Made by a program: the position numbers and the translations under genes. From a virus: a stretch of DNA of 64,000 nt. The stretch is from positions 31,796 to 95,795 of the IMG/VR virus record IMGVR_UViG_3300042197_000642. One strand, 5' to 3'. The notes beneath the pieces are model-generated. The model saw only the letters and a list, made by a program, of their open reading frames with translations. It was not told the DNA's origin and searched no databases. Positions 3,542 through 63,701 of this stretch are shown piece by piece (the stretch's first letter is position 1; every line of letters starts with the position of its first letter).

Positions 3542-6019
3542 CTACGTTTTTGGCTGAGCTAAGTAAATAGTAAAAGTTGTGCCTGATGTCAAAAACTCGG
3601 GTAAAGCAGTTTTTAATCTAGATTCAATTGCTACTCTATTGGTGTATAGGTGGGATCTCGCACCATTAGCTATTCCGCCTTCCCAATACAGCTCTTCATC
3701 AGTTGCTGGGCCTTGGTTACCATCAAAGTACGGAAGCAAAAATGGAGTGTTTTCAAGCAATGCGTGGTCTATTGCCAACTCTGCCCCAGGTGTAGCGGGA
3801 ATCCATAAAAACTCCACTTTTGCATTAACTGCATTTTCTGGAGATATTCCAGTTACATAAACTCTAGTCCAGTCTGTAGTTATATTAGTGCTAACTCCTA
3901 TAGATTCATTAATTAAAATATCATTAGAGTCATACCAATATATAGTGCAGATACCTGTTTGGCTACCGCTGTAAGATTTTGTATATATGCTAAAAGTGTA
4001 AGAGGAACCGGGATAATATATAGGAATTAAAACAGATGTCCCTGTAGTTGATTCTACGTTTACTGGCGTAGTAGAGGGTGCTGTAAGTTTTATTACTGAT
4101 CCAGATTTAGCAACCGTTCCAGATACAGTTGTTAATGGTACATTTCCAGTTGTTAAACTAAAAGTAATAGTATTTTCAGTAACTACAGACACAGTGTGTT
4201 GTCCGTCTACTGTCACGTTAATGCCACTTACATTTATAACATCTCCAACTTTAATTTCATGACGTAAAGTAGTGTTTAACTCAACTAAATTAGTTTGTAT
4301 AAAGTAAGAATTAACCTGATATGTTGGATCGTCTGGATCCGGGGTTTCAGCGTCTGTAACGTATGTAGCGTTTAAGATGTTCCAAGGCGCTAAAGATCCA
4401 GCAAAATTTGGATTTATTAACTCATTAATTCTACTTGCTTTTAAAGTAATATGTAAGTTTCTAGCTTCATCAAACTCGGTAACTGCAGCAGATTGCTCAA
4501 ACTGAGCTGCGTCAAAATAATGGTGCTCTCCGCTTGCGGCGTTTGCTACAGAAGCAATAGAAATGATAGGAACAGCATAATAAGCAGTAGCTGGAGCAGT
4601 TCCAGTTACAGTAGGTCTTACCGTAAAGATTCCAGTGTTTCCATTTGGCGTAGCGGTTCCGTTAGTTGTAGAAATAGACGTACCAAATCGGTTATACCAA
4701 TGAATACTTAATGTAACACTTCTAGAGGTAGAGCCAACTGAATAAATGCTAAATGTGTAAGGCAGACCAGCTGTTACTGGTATGCCTGAGCCAATAGGAT
4801 CTGACTCAGCAGCAGAAATAGATACTGTTCCAGCACTGGCGCTTGAGTTAGAGATCCTTAATATTCCACTTTGTTTATTTGGATATCCATTAATAGTAGT
4901 TGGTTCATCCCAAGGAACTGGAAAAGACGATAATACACCTGTTGTTTCTGTTGTAGCAATATCATAAAACGTTTTAGCAAACGACACGGTGTTTGTAGTT
5001 ACAGCCGTTAAAGTGACTGGAGAAGTTGTATTTATTAATGGTATAGGTGACCCTGAAATGTTTACTTGGTCTCCAATACTGTAACCGTGTGCGGTATCTA
5101 AAGTTATAATTAATACGTTTGAGGCTACTTGGTAGTGGGTAACATTGCATGTAGTAAGTGCTTTTAAGACAGCATTAGACTTGCTTTCCCAAAGACCTGT
5201 AGACTCTTCAAAAGAAGAAGAATTGTAATCAAGCATTAAGTTATGGCTCACTACAATACCGTTAACCCCAGGGTTTGGTAAAGACGTATCTGGGTCAGGT
5301 ACCGCGTATCCGCTAAACGCTTTTATAAATTCTCTAATACCTTGATTACTACCTTTTTCTTTGTATAACTGAACAGCGTCACGTACAAGGACTCTAGACT
5401 GTTGTAATCCAATTTCTGGTTCAAACTTTAATCCAAACTCTTCTAAAAGAGTAGGGAGTATTGCACCGTTACTAACACTTAAATCGTATCTTTTTGTTGA
5501 GTTTTCTATAAAAGTTCTATATTTATCTAACTCAAACCCAAAAATACTTAAAAACTTATACAAACTTTGATTTGTTTCGTTACTTTTAGCCGAAGACAAA
5601 CTTGTATATTTATAAGGTTCTGGAATGTATTTATATAATAAATTAGCAGTTTTAAAGTCTTTTACTGCTAAAGCTGATACGTCACCTGCTTTAACCCAAA
5701 CATATTGTGAAATATCATAAACAAATAAAGAATAATAATAGAATCTTCCAGTAATTATATCGTTGTCGTCTAATAAAGAAGCAGGATCAAATCCGTAATA
5801 TCTGTCTAAAAGTTCTTTTCCTTCAAAAGCACTAGTAGGAAATCCATAAGTTCCTCTAACTAAACGAATTCTATTCCAAGAGCCGCTAGGGCTAGTCCAA
5901 TTTAACTTTATTTGCCCATGACCATACGGTACTGCTGTAAAATCAGTTACAATATAATCAACTAAAGCTGGTTGACCATAAAATGCTGAACCGTAATAAT
6001 TAATACCGTAACGGGACAT
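3542..6019 (-). CDS. Baseplate/tail protein (P2 gpI / TIGR02242-like) with C-terminal beta modules
   Basis: An 825-residue protein. Residues about 1-270 contain the tail-protein domain seen next to gpJ in many contractile tails: a Tyr/Gly-rich start, then ILPTLLEEFGLKF and VRDAVQLYKEKGSNQGIREF, the usual TIGR02242 hallmark. The rest is beta-rich. It has at least two copies of a beta module found in other virion genes here (starting near THYQVASNVLIITLD and near NSYFIQTNLVELN), alternating with carbohydrate-binding-like jelly-roll segments (PYTFSIYSVGS, SYTFSIYTKSY). It follows gpJ and a short tail gene in the operon. Likely baseplate periphery with receptor-binding or decoration domains. Confidence 0.75.
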   Translation of the reverse strand: MSRYGINYYGSAFYGQPALVDYIVTDFTAVPYGHGQIKLNWTSPSGSWNRIRLVRGTYGFPTSAFEGKELLDRYYGFDPASLLDDNDIITGRFYYYSLFVYDISQYVWVKAGDVSALAVKDFKTANLLYKYIPEPYKYTSLSSAKSNETNQSLYKFLSIFGFELDKYRTFIENSTKRYDLSVSNGAILPTLLEEFGLKFEPEIGLQQSRVLVRDAVQLYKEKGSNQGIREFIKAFSGYAVPDPDTSLPNPGVNGIVVSHNLMLDYNSSSFEESTGLWESKSNAVLKALTTCNVTHYQVASNVLIITLDTAHGYSIGDQVNISGSPIPLINTTSPVTLTAVTTNTVSFAKTFYDIATTETTGVLSSFPVPWDEPTTINGYPNKQSGILRISNSSASAGTVSISAAESDPIGSGIPVTAGLPYTFSIYSVGSTSRSVTLSIHWYNRFGTSISTTNGTATPNGNTGIFTVRPTVTGTAPATAYYAVPIISIASVANAASGEHHYFDAAQFEQSAAVTEFDEARNLHITLKASRINELINPNFAGSLAPWNILNATYVTDAETPDPDDPTYQVNSYFIQTNLVELNTTLRHEIKVGDVINVSGINVTVDGQHTVSVVTENTITFSLTTGNVPLTTVSGTVAKSGSVIKLTAPSTTPVNVESTTGTSVLIPIYYPGSSYTFSIYTKSYSGSQTGICTIYWYDSNDILINESIGVSTNITTDWTRVYVTGISPENAVNAKVEFLWIPATPGAELAIDHALLENTPFLLPYFDGNQGPATDEELYWEGGIANGARSHLYTNRVAIESRLKTALPEFLTSGTTFTIYLAQPKT

Positions 6020-10891: not shown

Positions 10892-12076
10892 CTACTCTTT
10901 GTTTTCTAGACCAAAACCTGTGTAAATCCACAAATCAAAAGCAAGTTCTGTTCTTAATGGAATCATATTAGTATTAAAAGCAGTGTGTTTAATTGAAACC
11001 GATTGCAACCAACCTACATAAGATAATGGCTTTAAAGATGTTGAAGAGGGCCCAAATTCAACTGCAGTTAACGCAGGATACAAATAACCCAAATCATAAG
11101 TTTCTCTACCTAACGGATTGACTGGTTGTTTATTTTCAAGTAGAGTACCAGCGTTTATCATTCTAAAAATGTATTCAATATCATGCATTGTGCCGTATTC
11201 CATTAAGTTTTTTAACTTTTTACCAAATGGCGTTCCAGTGTCTGAGTTTAATCCTTGTTTGTAGTAACCTTTATAATTTGTTTCTAGTTGGCTTTGATCA
11301 CCGTTATTTTCAATGTAAGACCTATAAATAGCCGCAAAGTCATTTGTTCTATCTATCATTAAACTAAAGGTTAAATGCTCTTGGCTTGGAAAAATACCAG
11401 CCACAGCCCTAAATCGGTCTCCCGCGTCTGGAACAATGTCCATTTTTGTTGCAACTTGAAGTTGAATCTCCTGTGGATTCCATAAGAATTGAAAACCGGC
11501 TGGCTTATAAAACGTTATTGCATTTCTTGCCTGATCGCCTCCTCCTAAGTTTTCTGTACTTTTAAGTTGGTTTTCTCTAGTTCTTGCAGTTTGGCCACTT
11601 GGCAGACTGCGACCACCTTCAGTGTTTGTGTTGGGTGTTTGAGTATTAGACGTTGTACTTTCTTCTACCCCAGCAATGTCAGAGTACAGCCACATTTTTC
11701 CTCTACGTCTAGAGTGGGCTGCTGTAACATCTGAAAGGTTATCTAAATTACTTGGGTTTAAAGGTAAACTCCATTCGTGTGGAGGTAAATTAAACTCAAC
11801 ACCATCTGTTGTAAGCTTTCCTTCAGATTGAGGGTATTCTTTTTTAAGACCTCTTACATATTTTCTATTTCTTACTTTTTCATCAATAGGTTTATCTGGT
11901 AACGGTAGATTAAAGTTATTAGTAAAGTTGTCAGGACGTAAAGGTTGAAACGCTGGCACTTGAACAAGAGTTGGTACACCGTTTATTAATACAGTTGTAG
12001 TTGTTGTTGGGGCTTGGAAACTTGATTTAACTGATTTACTAATATTTCTATTTGTGTTAGATGGTCCGACACCCAT
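10892..12076 (-). CDS. Tail tube-initiator-type / contractile injection system tube protein
   Basis: A 394-residue protein. The segment FYKPAGFQFLWNPQEIQLQV resembles the 'F.FNPe.' opening of tube-initiator or LysM-associated baseplate proteins found between tape measure and gpX/gpD genes. It has a disordered N-terminal 130 residues rich in Asn, Pro and Lys, then a beta-rich domain (HLTFSLMIDRTND; YLYPALTAVEFGP; VSIKHTAFNTNMIPLR). Assignment is by position and the NPxE-type motif. The stop codon of the tape measure gene overlaps its start region. Confidence 0.6.
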   Translation of the reverse strand: MGVGPSNTNRNISKSVKSSFQAPTTTTTVLINGVPTLVQVPAFQPLRPDNFTNNFNLPLPDKPIDEKVRNRKYVRGLKKEYPQSEGKLTTDGVEFNLPPHEWSLPLNPSNLDNLSDVTAAHSRRRGKMWLYSDIAGVEESTTSNTQTPNTNTEGGRSLPSGQTARTRENQLKSTENLGGGDQARNAITFYKPAGFQFLWNPQEIQLQVATKMDIVPDAGDRFRAVAGIFPSQEHLTFSLMIDRTNDFAAIYRSYIENNGDQSQLETNYKGYYKQGLNSDTGTPFGKKLKNLMEYGTMHDIEYIFRMINAGTLLENKQPVNPLGRETYDLGYLYPALTAVEFGPSSTSLKPLSYVGWLQSVSIKHTAFNTNMIPLRTELAFDLWIYTGFGLENKE

Positions 12077-20833: not shown

Positions 20834-21666
20834 TATGAGAACCTTCCCCAGAAAGCCGTTTGACCGGCGGTTGGTGTTATTGTTGTTGGTAGGTCAGATT
20901 GAGATGATGCAAAAGAACGAAGTATTGGGTTTAAGCTAACCATAGAAACTGGGATTAAACCCGCACCAGCTAAGTAAGCGTTTCCAGGAGTACCACCTAC
21001 AACAATGATACCTAGGGCGTATCTAAGACCACGTTGAATAGTGTAAGCGGATGGAAAGCCTCCGGTAGTATTAAATGATCTAGTGTAAAGAGTATTTACT
21101 GCACTAAAAATAGTAGTGTCGTTTGCGGTACGTGCTACCAGTGTTAGCTGACCTGTTGTTTCATTTACTGTGTACAAACCAAATCTAATTAGAGATGCAC
21201 CTGTCGTTACGACACCAGCTGAAGACACGCTAATATTGCTTACGTTTACTGTGTTCATATGAGTAAAGTATGTAAAATATGCAGTTCCAGATGTAATAAG
21301 AGCGTTACCAGTAGAGTATCTTGGAGTTACATCTACCGCATCGATTCCGTATCCAAGGTTATCTTCTAAGTTTTCTGTTACCACATAGTGTTCATCAAGC
21401 GTTGTTTTTAAAGCATTTACGTCTAAGGCAACTGTTTGTGTTGGGCTATCGTATGTAATTGGTGAAGTTGCTACTGCTATCCCAGCGGGTCCAGTAGGGC
21501 CAGTTGGTCCGGTTGGACCTGTATCACCTATGTCGCCTTGAGGACCTGTTGGTCCAACTGCGCTTGTACGAACAAGACGCCAAGCAGTTCCAGTCCATTG
21601 GTATGTTTGACCTAAATAAGAGTACGTCTGACCACTCGTCGGTGAACTTGGAAAATCAATAGGCAT
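20833..21666 (-). CDS. Collagen-like fibre protein, short shaft
   Basis: A 277-residue protein. The N-terminal anchor MPIDFPSSPTSGQTYSYLGQ (then TYQWTGTAWRLV) is nearly the same as in the gene at 23344-23634. A short Gly-Pro-Thr shaft follows (residues about 37-62), and then a beta head (GNALITSGTAYFTYFTHMNT; LRYALGIIVVGGTPGNAY). A likely virion fibre or decoration protein. Ribosome site AAGGAG precedes the ATG. Confidence 0.7.
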   Translation of the reverse strand: MPIDFPSSPTSGQTYSYLGQTYQWTGTAWRLVRTSAVGPTGPQGDIGDTGPTGPTGPTGPAGIAVATSPITYDSPTQTVALDVNALKTTLDEHYVVTENLEDNLGYGIDAVDVTPRYSTGNALITSGTAYFTYFTHMNTVNVSNISVSSAGVVTTGASLIRFGLYTVNETTGQLTLVARTANDTTIFSAVNTLYTRSFNTTGGFPSAYTIQRGLRYALGIIVVGGTPGNAYLAGAGLIPVSMVSLNPILRSFASSQSDLPTTITPTAGQTAFWGRFS

Positions 21667-21676
21667 TTATATCTCC

Positions 21677-23343
<1,667 letters not shown>

Positions 23344-31600: not shown

Positions 31601-31945
31601 TTCGTATTGAATACCATCAACAAACTGTGACCAGTATGTAGCATTTGGTGGAGTAATGTTTACGCTGTTTGCAATAGCAATATAAACTTTACCACCATGC
31701 GCAACACCATCACCAACTTGATAGCTAGTTCCTGAAACATATGGTCCTTCAAAGTTAATGCCTCTTAGCATTAATGACCAGTAAGCTACATCAGTTGGTA
31801 GGTTACCAGCAGCTGAAATTACGGAAATGTAAACGTATACGTTACCGCCATACTTTACAACATCGTTAACTTCATATGTAGTTGAGTTGTTATACTCACC
31901 GGCAAAAAAGAAACGCAGTTTGCCTAAATCAATAAGTTGCGGCAT
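28697..31945 (-). CDS. Giant tail fibre with carbohydrate-binding repeats
   Basis: A 1082-residue fibre. Residues 1-310 hold six to seven repeats of about 47 residues of the CBM5/12-like type (GEYNNSTTYEVNDVVKYGGN; YNGSTTYQKNDVVKYGGKAY; NLPTNTTYWDKF). Then come two copies of the shared beta module (from SVLNSNVVTLTTSAAHGF and from SRDASNVATLTTTAAHNF) and two near-identical blocks of about 120 residues (NDGYIFVQG / NDGYIFMDA, VFAAGGFSSGNEQ / VFAAGGLSSDNTQ). The C-terminus is short and ends FAHPFMMAAL. The CBM-like repeats suggest glycan contact. Confidence 0.75.
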   Translation of the reverse strand: MPQLIDLGKLRFFFAGEYNNSTTYEVNDVVKYGGNVYVYISVISAAGNLPTDVAYWSLMLRGINFEGPYVSGTSYQVGDGVAHGGKVYIAIANSVNITPPNATYWSQFVDGIQYEGSYNGSTTYQKNDVVKYGGKAYIAKVDGAGNLPTNTTYWDKFVDGIAASGVYNNGTNYVPGDVVAYGANTFTCILETTGNVPTNTTYWQAFSGGISYRSEWAGTTQYYPNDVVNRGGKTYIALLAHISSGTFSADLAEAKWQAFNGGIRVTGDFTASTPYLTGDLAFDGVDTYIANQDFTSGASIAADSTKWDLFAQGADYLPGQVGNAGKILGTDGTDPFWGYEVNKLYVSDSATVADSAEEFETDAGLTDATAVFVDTSTNYTQIAYKNEGQGTESSADIIVYSDQGNNDEGFIDVGIANSMFDSETFGITGPNDGYIFVQGVPSKTRTVTNSVLNSNVVTLTTSAAHGFKSGLPVVITGLASAYNGTYTITGTPTTTTFTYAKTNANIAAASGLSGQAVQGYGNGDLVLATGDGGERNAIVFAAGGFSSGNEQVTIMPDQNVHIEIATPSTSPSTGALTIVGGVGVQGDMFMAGDLSVESGGIIARDALFVGADAPEQAENVGTNVKTVSFKSRDASNVATLTTTAAHNFAPFMLVTVAIGDATFDGEIEVIDVPTATTFTYSSTGSLVANTVVASGTASQVPGFTNPMAVFVADADDYAQLVVQNIGTDPNSSSDFIAYANNGDDFSGYIDMGITSENFADPEFTITGGNDGYIFMDAPQGTTGSGNLVFATGGRGTENKIVFAAGGLSSDNTQMVITPDLNIHIEIPTASISPTTGALTVVGGVGIQGDVYIQGTISFGGSGTTVSTANLSVTDPLIFVGADNPQNNFELGLVAEYALVTTIDPTATVTAVSVSSNLATFALTYPGGVLPEEKFRVNDSVVITGVNGTFNGTYAVAAVGTSSITVNLTTADTTLTGLSGAANATNVYRPKYAGLAKDNTDGKWKLFSELDTRPTGGTINFAGVTFDAFKAGATEVTTLAASTSASAPFVSITNALPTAASHATRKDYVDNVTFAHPFMMAAL

Positions 31946-35750: not shown

Positions 35751-35787
35751 TTATTTCCTCCGGTTTAATGACTGGGTGTTTGTGTTG

Positions 35788-45386: not shown

Positions 45387-45673
45387 TGAAGACTATAGCC
45401 CCGTATTTTGATGGAACTCAGTTGTGTGCCCAGACAGATCCGGAGCTCTTCTTCCCCTCTAGTCCTGTATTGACAGTTAAACATAAGCGTTTAACTAAAC
45501 CAATATGCGATGCCTGCCACTTTAAGTCAGAGTGTTTAGATTACGCTGTGACAACTAATGTGTCTGGTATTTGGGCTAATACGAGCGATAACGATAGGCG
45601 ATTAATACGTAGGAAGCGTGGCTTGCCTGCACCGTCAACCGTTGGTTCACTAATAACTAAACTAGTGAGCTAA
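45386..45673 (+). CDS. whiB: WhiB-like transcription regulator
   Basis: A 95-residue WhiB-family protein. Four conserved cysteines occur in the order C14, C41-x2-C44-x5-C50 (CDACHFKSEC), which bind a 4Fe-4S cluster, followed by the turn GIWANTSDNDRRLI, matching 'GiWgG.te.eRr', and a basic tail. WhiB proteins bind the principal sigma factor and are restricted to actinobacteria and their phages, so this gene is strong evidence for the host group. Could switch host or phage promoters. Confidence 0.9.
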   Translation: MKTIAPYFDGTQLCAQTDPELFFPSSPVLTVKHKRLTKPICDACHFKSECLDYAVTTNVSGIWANTSDNDRRLIRRKRGLPAPSTVGSLITKLVS

Positions 45674-59798: not shown

Positions 59799-59836
59799 GT
59801 CCTATCCTTTACATGAGGAGTGCTTGCGCCTATACT
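59799..59836 (+). promoter_or_regulatory. Early-type promoter 1 with GTCCTATCCTT element
   Basis: GTCCTATCC overlaps a -35 TTTACA (59808-59813), 17 bases, then -10 TATACT (59831-59836), 43 bases before the first plus-strand ATG. The same upstream element GTCCTAYCCTT occurs at 60999, 62290 and 63663. CTCTCACAG lies just upstream, as at the other copies. Confidence 0.75.
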
Positions 59837-60840: not shown

Positions 60841-60852
60841 TTCTATTCGAGT

Positions 60853-60890
60853 TCCCGCGTTGCCTCCTATCGGCGCGGGAGCTTTTGTTT
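60853..60890 (+). terminator. Intrinsic terminator of first right-arm operon
   Basis: TCCCGCG / CGCGGGA stem followed by GCTTTTGTTT. It lies immediately before the first inverted 11-mer pair. Confidence 0.65.
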
Positions 60891-60948
60891 GTGTCGGGGT
60901 GGCTGGGTGGGGTGGGGGGCCGTGCAGCTAAGTGGCTCCAACACAAAC
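60887..60948. repeat. Inverted 11-mer pair 1 (GTTTGTGTYGG ... CCAACACAAAC)
   Basis: Left arm 60887-60897 is GTTTGTGTCGG (one base off), right arm 60938-60948 is CCAACACAAAC, spacer 40 bases, G-rich. It lies between terminator and promoter, as do pairs 2 and 3. Confidence 0.75.
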
Positions 60949-60998
60949 TCCCCCCGCGCTCGGGCGTGTCGTCCGGGATTGCCAGGGCTCACAGATTC

Positions 60999-61036
60999 GT
61001 CCTACCCTTGAGAGTTGAGAGTGCTAGGCATATTAT
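60999..61036 (+). promoter_or_regulatory. Early-type promoter 2 with GTCCTACCCTTG element
   Basis: GTCCTACCCTTG at 60999-61010; -35 TTGAGA (61008-61013), 17 bases, -10 TATTAT (61031-61036); 28 bases before the DUF932 ATG. GCTCACAG lies just upstream, as in promoter 1. Confidence 0.75.
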
Positions 61037-61064
61037 TAGCGCACCTACTACGAAGGGGGTTAAA

Positions 61065-62063
61065 ATGGCTCACAACTTAGAGAGATTCGGCTCTGATGTT
61101 GCTTTTGCTACGCGGGAGATTCCCGCATGGCATGGGCTAGGGCAAGTGTTCTCAGGTGAGGTATCTACATCTGAAATGCTAAGCCTTGCACACTTAAACG
61201 GATGGAATGTTCGTTTATCTCCACTATCTACAAGCGCACCAAGCGCTAAACCTTATTTTGAGGTTATCCGCACTAATCCATCAACTAACGCCGATGAGGT
61301 ATTGGCTGTAGTTGGTGACCGCTATCGTGTATTGCAGAATGAAGAATTGTTTCAATTCGGCGATGCAATTCTAGATGGTGGCGCACAATGGGAAACCGCA
61401 GGCTCAATTAAAAAGGGCACTACTGTATTCGGCTCATTACTTATCAATAGAGAATTCACCCTTGACCCACAAGGCGCAAGCGATACAACTAAAACTTATC
61501 TGCTAGTGAACTCTTCACATGATGGTTCTTGCTCCGTGCGTGCTAGTGTTACGCCTGTTAGAGTTGTTTGCCAGAATACGCTTAATCTAGCATTACGCTC
61601 TGTTAAGCAATCATTCACAATTCGCCACACCACTAACCTAACCCAGCGTGCAAGCCAAGCACGCCAAGCGCTAGGCTTAACATTCTCATACATGGATGAA
61701 TTCGAGGTATTAGCGGGTCAATTATTCGAGGCTAAAGTTAGCCAAGATGACTTTCGCAAGATGTTAGATGTCGTTTATCCAATCGACATTGCTAATGCTA
61801 AGCAATCTCAGATAACCAAGCGCGATAACAAGATCGATTTCTTGATGGCGCTATGGCTAAACTCTCCTACTATGGAGACAATCAAGGGCACCGCGTGGGG
61901 CGCACTTAACGCAATCACTGAGCGTTTGGATTACTTCCGCGATTCCCGCACATCTTCAAATGGCACTGAAGGTATTCAATCCGCAGCAAGCGGTTTCGAA
62001 CCAGCGATGAACGCTGAAAAAGCGCGGGTGTTAAATATCATCCGAGACAAGGTAGGTGTCTAA
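61065..62063 (+). CDS. DUF932/TIGR03299-family phage protein
   Basis: Start set at ATG 61065 after CGAAGGGGG; the longer frame crosses the repeat and promoter. A 332-residue protein with the family opening ERFGSDVAFATREIPAWHGL, FGDAILDGGAQWETAGSIKK in the centre, and VRVVCQNTLNLALRSVKQSF followed by IRHTTNLTQRASQARQALGL. This family is common in actinophages and plasmids and its role is unknown, perhaps DNA-related. It is a one-gene operon with its own promoter and terminator. Confidence 0.88.
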   Translation: MAHNLERFGSDVAFATREIPAWHGLGQVFSGEVSTSEMLSLAHLNGWNVRLSPLSTSAPSAKPYFEVIRTNPSTNADEVLAVVGDRYRVLQNEELFQFGDAILDGGAQWETAGSIKKGTTVFGSLLINREFTLDPQGASDTTKTYLLVNSSHDGSCSVRASVTPVRVVCQNTLNLALRSVKQSFTIRHTTNLTQRASQARQALGLTFSYMDEFEVLAGQLFEAKVSQDDFRKMLDVVYPIDIANAKQSQITKRDNKIDFLMALWLNSPTMETIKGTAWGALNAITERLDYFRDSRTSSNGTEGIQSAASGFEPAMNAEKARVLNIIRDKVGV

Positions 62064-62079
62064 CCTACAAAGCTTCAAA

Positions 62080-62106
62080 GCCTCCGCAGCCAGCGGGGGC
62101 TTTTTT
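62080..62106 (+). terminator. Intrinsic terminator
   Basis: GCCTCCGC / GCGGGGGC stem (one G-T pair), loop AGCCA, then six T. It ends the DUF932 transcript. The 62064-62359 gap otherwise holds only repeat pair 2 and promoter 3. Confidence 0.88.
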
Positions 62107-62121
62107 GCTTTATCCCGAATT

Positions 62122-62208
62122 GTTTGTGTTGGTGTCTTGGTTTTTGGTGGTTCCTTGGAATCTTGGATGGCGCAATGCAATGGAGCCAGTAAAGATTCCA
62201 ACACAAAC
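62122..62208. repeat. Inverted 11-mer pair 2
   Basis: GTTTGTGTTGG at 62122-62132 and CCAACACAAAC at 62198-62208, both exact, spacer 65 bases. Lies right after a terminator and before promoter 3. Confidence 0.8.
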
Positions 62209-62289
62209 ATTGGCTAATCTGATAGTCCCATTTGATTGTAGGAGAGAGAGTGCCGGCGCCTGGATCCAGATCTGACAGCTCTCAGCTGC

Positions 62290-62327
62290 GTCCTACCCTT
62301 GACTTTGAGAGTATTGAAGAGTTTAAT
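62290..62327 (+). promoter_or_regulatory. Early-type promoter 3 with GTCCTACCCTTG element
   Basis: GTCCTACCCTTG 62290-62301; -35 TTGACT (62299-62304), 17 bases, -10 TTTAAT (62322-62327). Upstream AGCTCTCAG (62266-62284 region) and GAGAGAGTGC are shared with promoter 4. Confidence 0.75.
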
Positions 62328-62359
62328 TCGTTTACCACTAATTGAAAGGGGGGCTAACT

Positions 62360-62524
62360 ATGGACGACCCACGTCTATGGATGGCAGAAGTATACCGAGC
62401 AGTAAGAAATCAACCCAACCTTAAAACCGAGTTCAACCAACAGATAAACAGTTGCGAAGGTCCTGACCACGCAATTCAAATCTGCAAGAAGTTCCTAATG
62501 CTTGCTTCCGTGAGCAAGGCTTAA
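62360..62524 (+). CDS. Small hypothetical protein, 54 aa
   Basis: Start at ATG 62360 after AAGGGGGG rather than the TTG at 62342. MDDPRLWMAEVYRAVRNQPN, then KTEFNQQINSCEGPDHAIQI. Helical, unknown. Followed one base later by the next small gene. Confidence 0.6.
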   Translation: MDDPRLWMAEVYRAVRNQPNLKTEFNQQINSCEGPDHAIQICKKFLMLASVSKA

Positions 62525-62525
62525 C

Positions 62526-62693
62526 ATGTGTAATTGTATAGTTCATCATCCAGATCTACAAAGCGAGGACTGGCAAATTGCTTTAAGTAATTTGCGTCAA
62601 ACTATTGACCATGGCGACGGTAATCTAATACCATTACTTGCAGAACAAGTGTTTGGCAATTGCCCTAGTAGAACGGATAAAGTAAATGGGTAA
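62526..62693 (+). CDS. Small hypothetical protein, 55 aa
   Basis: MCNCIVHHPDLQSEDWQIAL, then TIDHGDGNLIPLLAEQVFGN. CNC and HH near the start may bind metal. It overlaps the next gene by 8 bases. Unknown. Confidence 0.55.
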   Translation: MCNCIVHHPDLQSEDWQIALSNLRQTIDHGDGNLIPLLAEQVFGNCPSRTDKVNG

Positions 62694-62901
62694 AATGAAA
62701 GATATCGTAATGGATATCATGGCTTACGAGTCAGGGGAAATGAACGAGCAAGAAATCCTTGACTTCTTTCAGTATCTAGTAGATACTAAACTAGTATGGC
62801 AATTACAAGGACACTACGGAAGAACCGCTACCGCCCTAATAGAAACTGGAGCAATAAGTGATAACACTAACACACACAGTAACACTCAAGACAACGATTG
62901 A
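62686..62901 (+). CDS. Conserved small actinophage protein, 71 aa
   Basis: MKDIVMDIMAYESGEMNEQE, LDFFQYLVDTKLVWQLQGHY and GRTATALIETGAI form the pattern seen in many actinophages ('ImayE.G.l......lFq.LvdtG..W.LQG.YGR.A..Li..G.I'). I know the pattern, not the function. Ends in a disordered Asn/Thr-rich tail. Confidence 0.75.
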   Translation: MGKMKDIVMDIMAYESGEMNEQEILDFFQYLVDTKLVWQLQGHYGRTATALIETGAISDNTNTHSNTQDND

Positions 62902-63076
62902 CGAAACCAAAGCGCCTAAGGATATGCTTGAGCGTTTGTATAAAGTAGATAGCGAAGACTTGCCAAGACTTCTAAATGTTGTCTTCCTAGCAACAGCAGA
63001 GAAGTTAAAGGTGTTTGAGAAGATGAACGAGCACAACAGTTACGCAACTGTCGAGCCAGTATTGGAGACACTATGA
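62858..63076 (+). CDS. Small hypothetical protein, 72 aa
   Basis: GTG start at 62858 with GGAG upstream, overlapping the previous gene by 44 bases. LTHTVTLKTTIDETKAPKDM, then LPRLLNVVFLATAEKLKVFE. Alpha/beta. Coupled by ATGA to the next gene. Confidence 0.55.
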   Translation: MITLTHTVTLKTTIDETKAPKDMLERLYKVDSEDLPRLLNVVFLATAEKLKVFEKMNEHNSYATVEPVLETL

Positions 63077-63432
63077 ACCCTAAGTGCGCAGATATAATCG
63101 ACGCAGACATCAAGAACACCGAGGACTATCTCTCAGGCTTATTAGATAGGCTTGAGGGAGATACCTTAGATGATGAACGTGATGAGGTAGTAGCCCAACT
63201 GGACGAGTTCGCCGCGGGTGTAGAGAAGTACAATGTGATAAGACTAGTACTCTCAGGCGGAGGACCATCATCATTCATAGATGTTCTATATACACCGTAT
63301 GGTGATATTCAGAATATTGCATACCACTACCAAGATTGGTACGACGGAGCGGTCAAATTACTACCGAAGAGTTCCCCAATATGGCAATACGCAGAGGGTC
63401 AACTGGAGGGACACATAATCTTATCTACATAG
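63073..63432 (+). CDS. Hypothetical protein, 119 aa
   Basis: A 119-residue acidic protein: helical start (DTLDDERDEVVAQLDEFAAG) then beta hairpins (VIRLVLSGGGPSSFIDVLYT; GDIQNIAYHYQDWYDGAVKL). A conserved-looking GGGP loop and a DWYDGA turn. Common type in actinophage early regions, function unknown. Last gene before terminator 63469. Confidence 0.65.
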   Translation: MNPKCADIIDADIKNTEDYLSGLLDRLEGDTLDDERDEVVAQLDEFAAGVEKYNVIRLVLSGGGPSSFIDVLYTPYGDIQNIAYHYQDWYDGAVKLLPKSSPIWQYAEGQLEGHIILST

Positions 63433-63468
63433 GGTGGGTAAGCACGAGGCATAGTGGAGCCTCACAAG

Positions 63469-63498
63469 AAAGGCCGGCTACCTGTCAAGCCGGCCTTT
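63469..63498 (+). terminator. Intrinsic terminator
   Basis: An 11-bp perfect stem AAAGGCCGGCT / AGCCGGCCTTT, loop ACCTGTCA, followed by CGCTTTG. Ends the 62360-63432 transcript. Confidence 0.85.
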
Positions 63499-63526
63499 CG
63501 CTTTGTCAGGACTAGCAAGCGCGAGA

Positions 63527-63601
63527 GTTTGTGTTGGTTGCCGACCGCTTGCTGCGCTCGCTACCGGCTACCAATAGGGGAGGATAAAATCCAACACAAA
63601 C
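63527..63601. repeat. Inverted 11-mer pair 3
   Basis: GTTTGTGTTGG 63527-63537 and CCAACACAAAC 63591-63601, both exact, spacer 53 bases. Again between a terminator and promoter 4. Confidence 0.8.
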
Positions 63602-63662
63602 AAATGCTGAGATAGAGGTTTAAATTGGAGTATAGGGGGAGAGTGCGGCAGCTCTCAGGTTT

Positions 63663-63701
63663 GTCCTACCCTTGCTAATATCGTATTTGAGAGAGTAAAG
63701 T
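63663..63701 (+). promoter_or_regulatory. Early-type promoter 4 with GTCCTACCCTTG element
   Basis: GTCCTACCCTTG 63663-63674; -35 TTGCTA (63672-63677), 17-18 bases, -10 GTAAAG/TAAAGT (63695-63701). Upstream AGCTCTCAG and GGGAGAGTGC match promoter 3. Confidence 0.65.

Follow-up and report, generated by a model that had tools for sequence, protein, structure and literature searches.

Putative Boundary Elements with Fixed Inverted Arms and Variable Self-Pairing Cores in an Apparently Uncultured Phage Clade

Inverted Arm Pairs at Three Gene Boundaries

The 64,000-nucleotide window analyzed here (positions 31796–95795 of the 95,795-base IMG/VR virus record IMGVR_UViG_3300042197_000642) ends in a series of rightward genes whose intergenic gaps carry a recurrent element, in which two 11-mer arms in inverted orientation enclose a core of variable sequence. 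Three of these arm pairs lie in the window, and a fourth was found elsewhere in the same 95.8-kb record, at record positions 1149/1212 (spanning 1149–1222, L001), outside the window and upstream of an AAA_5 ATPase gene. Elements 2 and 3 bear the exact pair GTTTGTGTTGG/CCAACACAAAC (62122/62198 and 63527/63591), and the left arm of element 1, GTTTGTGTCGG, deviates by one mismatch. Dinucleotide shuffling of the sequence yielded no arm pair in 60 shuffles versus the three observed, and only three perfect 11-bp inverted repeats with a gap of 20–130 bases occur in the 64 kb, namely the two exact pairs plus an unrelated repeat.

A sequence-only reading of this DNA had described the three gaps as following one and the same order. 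The arm pairs, the terminator-like hairpins preceding them, and the GTCCTACCCTTG motif following them (at 60999, 62290, and 63663) agree with that description apart from the mismatched arm of gap 1. The GAGAGTGC..CTCTCAG tract, which had been placed ahead of the promoter motif throughout, holds for gaps 2 and 3 only; gap 1 has CTCACAG before the motif and GAGAGTGC after it. The coordinates of these features are collected in table 1.

Table 1. Features at and around the arm-pair elements (window coordinates unless record coordinates are given)
Feature	Position	Strand	Detail
Promoter motif without arms	59799..59836	+	GTCCTATCC, TTTACA-17-TATACT; where rightward genes begin
Terminator-like hairpin, gap 1	60849..60884	+	Closes upstream rightward unit; T tract enters arm
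Element 1	60887..60948	+	Arm 60887-60897 GTTTGTGTCGG, 40-nt G-rich core, arm 60938-60948 CCAACACAAAC
GTCCTACCCTTG motif overlapping sigma-70-like promoter	60999..61036	+	TTGAGA-17-TATTAT at 61008-61036
DUF932 gene, unit after element 1	61065..62063	+	PF06067, E=4e-52
Terminator-like hairpin 3' of DUF932 gene	62077..62103	+	
Element 2	62122..62208	+	Arms 62122-62132 and 62198-62208, both exact; 65-nt core
Motifs 5' of next gene	62247..62301	+	AGAGTGC (62247), CTCTCAG (62279), GTCCTACCCTTG (62290-62301)
Small gene after element 2	62360..62524	+	No Pfam family matched
Terminator hairpin of second unit	63468..63499	+	GAAAGGCCGGCT..AGCCGGCCTTTC, read directly from sequence
Element 3	63527..63601	+	Arms 63527-63537 and 63591-63601, both exact; 53-nt core
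Motifs upstream of gene beginning 63723	63640..63674	+	AGAGTGC, CTCTCAG, GTCCTACCCTTG (63663-63674)
WhiB-family match	Record 21544-21768		
WhiB-family match	Record 77214-77396 (window 45419-45601)		

Conservation in Related Phages

The distribution of the element was examined by scanning 2.9 million viral contigs (IMG/VR) for an exact pattern of two 10-base arm cores lying 38–68 bases apart. This returned 38 stretches, a large share of which contained two to four pairs, compared with two stretches when the arms were reversed as a control, and relaxed patterns gave 51 and 41 stretches, some chance matches included. Altogether, IMG/VR yielded about 105 distinct elements on about 40 related contigs, all of them ending in GTTTGTG..CACAAAC, and the exact 11-mer occurred in 134 copies in 18 records versus none for the reversed 11-mer. 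The same gene boundaries carry elements with nearly intact arms despite deep divergence of the phages (DUF932 identity 46–60%). Element 1, for example, has a counterpart with a similar core at the same location, upstream of DUF932, in L034 (117).

Outside this group the element was not encountered. In the DUF932 loci of sister-clade and other lineages (438 kb), exact arms were absent, as was any such element ahead of the DUF932 gene; the 75 kb examined of the isolated relative LuckySocke had neither an exact arm nor recurrent inverted arms, and no cultured member of the clade was found among 50,697 phage records searched at the DNA level. Bacterial genomes gave 17 scattered single matches and no multi-copy carrier; a prophage or host origin was set aside, these matches being judged chance-like. 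As far as collections go, the element thus appears to be a feature of one uncultured clade. Separately, many loci of the sister clade L107–L127 have a different inverted repeat, GGGGTTATCCACAG..CTGTGGAAAACCCC, together with a CRP-like palindrome, about 150 nt upstream of DUF932, and L174, L177, and L179 show a lone arm, GTTTGTGTTGGCCCGCCCACCCCG, behind terminators, with no second arm.

The layout was quantified on 81 non-redundant elements having sufficient flank. The element follows the terminator of one unit, putatively early, and precedes the promoter of the unit after it: a perfectly paired hairpin stem (6 bp or longer) was present in the 75 nt ahead of the first arm in 61/81 elements, compared with 10/81 in the 75 nt past the second, and in many elements the arm abuts the T tract of the terminator. 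Arms and their placement had been taken in the sequence-only reading to be what is kept, and in the related phages the arms and the order terminator, arm, spacer, arm, promoter are indeed retained, rather than lost or randomly placed. Using gene families clustered in this analysis (F1, F4, F6, F14, F15, F16, and F26), we observed a conserved order of element, DUF932, element, an optional single-gene unit, element, F4, element, F1-F15-F6, element, and AAA_5 plus VWA genes. The optional unit is F14, F26, or F16, which are mutually unrelated and each stand behind an element of their own.

Several short motifs were seen next to the elements. A DnaA-box-like TGTGGATAA lies 0–60 nt past the second arm in the sense orientation in 34/81 (L005, L007, L017–L019, L038, and others) and in reverse in 4/81, and is not present at the window's own elements; a CRP/GlxR-type TGTGRNNNNNNYCACA follows the second arm directly in 17/81 (L061, L074, L081, L024, and the L005 10749 region). 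Being consensus matches only, these two site types would fit a regulatory region. A parS-like GTTTCACGTGAAAC adjoins the element in 3/81 (e.g., L028 near 2199 and L006 near 2339).

Exact arms also occur singly, at window positions 11624, 21434, 35778, and 49901 and at record position 4992. Those at 35778 and 49901 are both in gaps between leftward genes; the former has a hairpin on one side and, on the other, the ribosome site of the gene that comes next after that for the capsid. Solitary arms were considered as stoperators and rejected: several orthologous ones in relatives encode a conserved peptide and are coding coincidences, and others fall inside long reading frames.

Pairing and Folding of the Cores

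Core length varies from 37 to 120 nt, giving total element lengths of 59–142 bp. Pairing beyond the arms, at stem positions 12–18, was strongly bimodal across the 105 elements, since 55 had 7/7 Watson–Crick pairs, 49 had 0–3/7 (the level of chance), and a single one, at window position 62122, had 4/7. In the 55 perfect-stem elements the stem thus continues beyond the arms without fault while its sequence varies: each of positions 13–18 is occupied by three to four pair types, and neither G.T nor A.C occurs in 385 pairs; in the other 50, the window's included, pairing ends at the arms. The arms themselves also covary, GTTTGTGCTGG being accompanied by CCAGCACAAAC. One such case is L019 (3548), which apart from this has almost the same core as L007 (9029).

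We then compared the folding of the inner core with that of shuffles in a non-redundant set of 85 elements. Mean inner folding z was −5.4 for the 40 perfect-stem elements and −2.0 for the 45 others, 22 of which were below −1.5. In the predicted folds of many of these 45, the outer 8 bp of the arms close off two or three hairpins. Judged on this pairing, the core of the element is not a free spacer, and the supposition of the sequence-only reading that the spacer is irrelevant is not supported. A figure of 100% pairing proved to be an artefact of row choice (the unselected count being 55/105), and a MAFFT plus RNAalifold analysis of one orthologous group was not used, the variable stems having been misaligned. 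In several perfect-stem elements (L007, L019, L017, L038, L036, and L005), about 16 unpaired nt of recurring sequence, ATAAAGCnnnnAATA, adjoin the inner hairpin.

A folding sense RNA would tolerate G.U but not A.C mismatches, and we accordingly counted, with no energy model, single mismatches embedded in otherwise paired hairpins. Terminators contained 36 G.T and 5 A.C, compared with 6 and 10 in element hairpins (Fisher p=0.0003, an optimistic value, as are the other p values, because the 105 elements share ancestry; the contrast itself is internal to the same loci). Likewise, G.U accounted for 9% in terminator hairpins versus 0/385 of the outer-stem pairs of elements. Because the element hairpins lack the G.T preference displayed by terminators of the same loci, folding at the DNA level seems more likely than folding at the RNA level, and the pairing of RNA arms that had been suggested for this locus finds no support in these counts. 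The contrast between G.T and A.C in element and terminator hairpins also constitutes a simple, reusable test of DNA versus RNA folding. No Rfam family matched in the window, and the Phe_leader and miRNA matches in relatives were to hairpins.

Exchange of Units and Cores

The contigs L017 and L066 are 86–88% identical around the F16 unit, which is missing in L017. On the left their homology ends about 19 bases into the element and on the right it restarts 15 bases before the element end, and the core of L017 matches neither of the L066 cores, being related instead to the L024 and L028 cores upstream of DUF932. The F26 unit precedes DUF932 in L017, L038, and L039 and follows it in L019 and L028, and in L019 it is preceded by an F14-type core. 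Related cores recur at different genes and positions, once in inverted form: L038 holds two elements with related cores in opposite orientation. Together, the L017/L066 comparison and these core relationships suggest that the boundaries exchange material. They fix neither an enzyme nor the exact join, because variable cores break homology in any case.

The Phage and Its Probable Host

The ends of the record are near-identical to each other over about 127 bases; the record is therefore effectively circular, and the rightward genes of its right end run on into the left end. Two WhiB-family matches were found in the record and, across 14 control genomes, the WhiB family matched in Corynebacterium only; on these grounds the host is probably an actinobacterium. 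The portal is SPP1-like, the major head protein belongs to phrog_1357, and the nearest isolates are Streptomyces phages: the terminase is 53–55% identical and the capsid about 71% identical to the closest sequences, those of BRock, LuckySocke, and Alone3.

Tyrosine recombinase (PF00589) had no match in 11 records, versus a match in all 14 controls, and neither serine resolvase (PF00239) nor Y1 transposase (PF01797) was matched across the same records; endonuclease VII, also sought in the 11, matched in one only. As neither integrase nor resolvase was matched, the clade looks purely lytic. With regard to an N4-type giant virion RNA polymerase, the largest reading frame in the window and L001 frames (L002 left out) is 1082 amino acids.

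Interpretation and Alternatives

Near-invariant 11-bp arms, their placement, conservation at the same boundaries, core pairing, and turnover of cores and single-gene units can all be read from the sequences. On this basis we tentatively propose, at somewhat less than even confidence, that these are DNA-level boundary elements between tandem early units, with protein-bound arms, serving early-unit control and as exchange points. The arm duplex would be bound by a putative protein, probably phage-encoded because the arms are absent from the examined sister-clade loci. The core would need only to fold, as a cruciform or a hairpin, bringing the two arms together, and the bound structure might then insulate the promoter that follows from the unit before it and switch that promoter jointly with the other early units. 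Units and cores would be exchangeable at the boundaries because identical arms stand at every one. The presumed parts of this scheme are accordingly protein binding, the formation of the fold inside the cell, regulation, and timing.

Several observations weigh against it. Few cores are as weakly structured as those of the window itself (inner z of −0.3, −1.5, and +1.9), so that core folding is drawn from the relatives, and the shared ancestry of the elements weakens the statistics. With RNA parameters, the sense strand of perfect-stem elements has a slight folding advantage over the antisense (p=0.004). Regulation by the element is deduced from its position, and any gap between tandem units sits between a terminator and a promoter; the arm-binding protein itself is putative. 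No arm, even when two mismatches are allowed, accompanies the promoter motif at 59799 (GTCCTATCC), on the far side of which lie leftward genes. Furthermore, arm spacing exhibited no 10.5-bp helical phasing, a result that leaves the looping protein envisaged in the sequence-only reading neither supported nor refuted; a spacing signal of about 11.5 bp in one class only was weak (p 0.007, uncorrected over 11 periods) and was set aside.

The strongest rival to the boundary-element proposal is a dedicated recombination site, comparable to an integron attC or a dif module, at which the folded element would mediate insertion, excision, or swapping of units and regulation would be secondary. The presence and absence of the F16 unit with homology ending inside the element (L017/L066), the shifting placement of F26 relative to DUF932, the F14-type core found with F26 in L019, and the relocation of cores, once with inversion, are what such a site would produce, and DNA-level pairing, a total length of 59–142 bp, and inverted arms flanking every unit would suit it as well. 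However, the three recombinase and transposase families were unmatched in the 11 records, simple excision of a unit fails since the L017 core is unlike both L066 cores, a variable core alone breaks homology, and the main gene order is mostly stable, which leaves this explanation unlikely, if still a serious one. Somewhat more doubtful is a further scheme of integron-like phage cassettes operating without tyrosine recombinases, in which folded fixed-arm sites would delimit promoter-gene-terminator cassettes and a putative factor would insert, remove, or invert cores and units.

We regard two other explanations as improbable, and about equally so. Selfish hairpin repeats, similar to mitochondrial repetitive hairpin-forming elements or miniature inverted-repeat transposable elements, could have settled behind terminators with no function for the phage, and would share with the elements their inverted termini, variable cores, several copies per genome, and cores common to different sites; retention of the same boundaries with nearly intact arms over such deep divergence is not expected of them, nor were multi-copy bacterial carriers or a Y1 transposase match found. 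An RNA element, formed when a read-through transcript folds at the arms into a backup terminator or an RNase III site, would be consistent with the arm abutting the terminator T tract in many elements and with the slightly better folding of the sense strand. Against it stand the G.U and A.C counts and the absence of G.U from the outer stems; moreover, no T run follows the second arm, and no Rfam family was matched. Hairpins loading a primase or primosome on one strand, that is, single-strand replication initiation sites, are very improbable: multi-hairpin folds closed by a short stem and the DnaA-box-like motif just downstream in 34/81 point in that direction, whereas it is difficult to see why every early unit should have one, making four to six copies, and the mismatches have no strand asymmetry.

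Comparison with Known Systems and Significance

No description of the element was found in the literature searched, a search that reached few subscription papers, and the arm-string matches listed were unrelated. Integron attC sites have conserved ends (RYYYAAC..GTTRRRY) and a variable folding core and are recombined by the tyrosine recombinase IntI. The elements resemble them in conserved ends, a variable folding core, similar length, and the separation of units by sites. They differ in that the GTTTGTG..CACAAAC ends do not fit the RYYYAAC..GTTRRRY order, PF00589 was unmatched in the 11 records, and the units carry promoters. Of the recognition of folded DNA typical of attC, DNA-level pairing appears to be supported here, recognition itself being hypothetical. 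Cluster A stoperators are asymmetric and occur singly, all oriented alike relative to transcription, and the phage repressor binds them. With these the elements share the character of short repeated phage sites in intergenic regions, but they are inverted pairs and their solitary copies are partly coding coincidences. The stoperator analogy offered by the sequence-only reading is therefore a poor one, and the extended start-associated sequences (ESAS; PMC3203893) are closer.

In cluster K mycobacteriophages, ESAS are imperfect 17-bp inverted repeats with a spacer mostly of 4–13 bp, beside the 13-bp start-associated sequence (SAS) at the start codon; judging from passages of that account, ESAS and the elements have in common inverted repeats, a variable spacer, intergenic gaps, the non-structural half of actinophage genomes, and restriction to a subset of genes, and those passages contain no core folding or unit exchange (PMC3203893). 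Unlike ESAS, the elements have 11-bp arms and 37–120 nt cores and lie far upstream, behind terminators. The inverted repeats of clusters EG and O are compact palindromes with 2–3 bp between half sites (PMC7302621, PMC4351075). These too are short dyad repeats present several times per actinophage genome, those of EG upstream of genes, whereas the elements are not compact, having 37–120 nt between their arms.

The promoter early stem-loop (PeSL), associated with Arbiol in 2010 and Comeau in 2014, is reportedly a promoter plus a terminator stem-loop. In T4-type phages, as summarized in part of a secondary source, it unites a terminator and an early promoter in one intergenic cassette and is tied to the shuffling of single-gene modules (via PMC4503421). 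The upstream terminator in 61/81 elements and the promoter-like sites of the window recall this arrangement, the early timing being presumed here. The boundaries described here hold an additional element with fixed inverted arms and a swappable folded core, which PeSL is not known to include, and the phage, with its SPP1-like portal and phrog_1357 major head, is unlike the T4-type phages that carry PeSL. The elements belong to neither ESAS nor PeSL, the nearest known systems. ESAS, PeSL, attC, and stoperators each overlap with them partially in design, and each has a defining feature that the elements lack.

Variation among phages is greatest in the small early genes, the gain, loss, and control of which are poorly understood. 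The phages concerned here recur in many metagenome assemblies. If true, a conserved boundary element that combines fixed arms with replaceable folding cores would be a concrete and testable device for both the turnover and the control of early genes, and such fixed-arm, swappable-core boundaries suggest a mode of partitioning and reshuffling viral genes that has not been described before.

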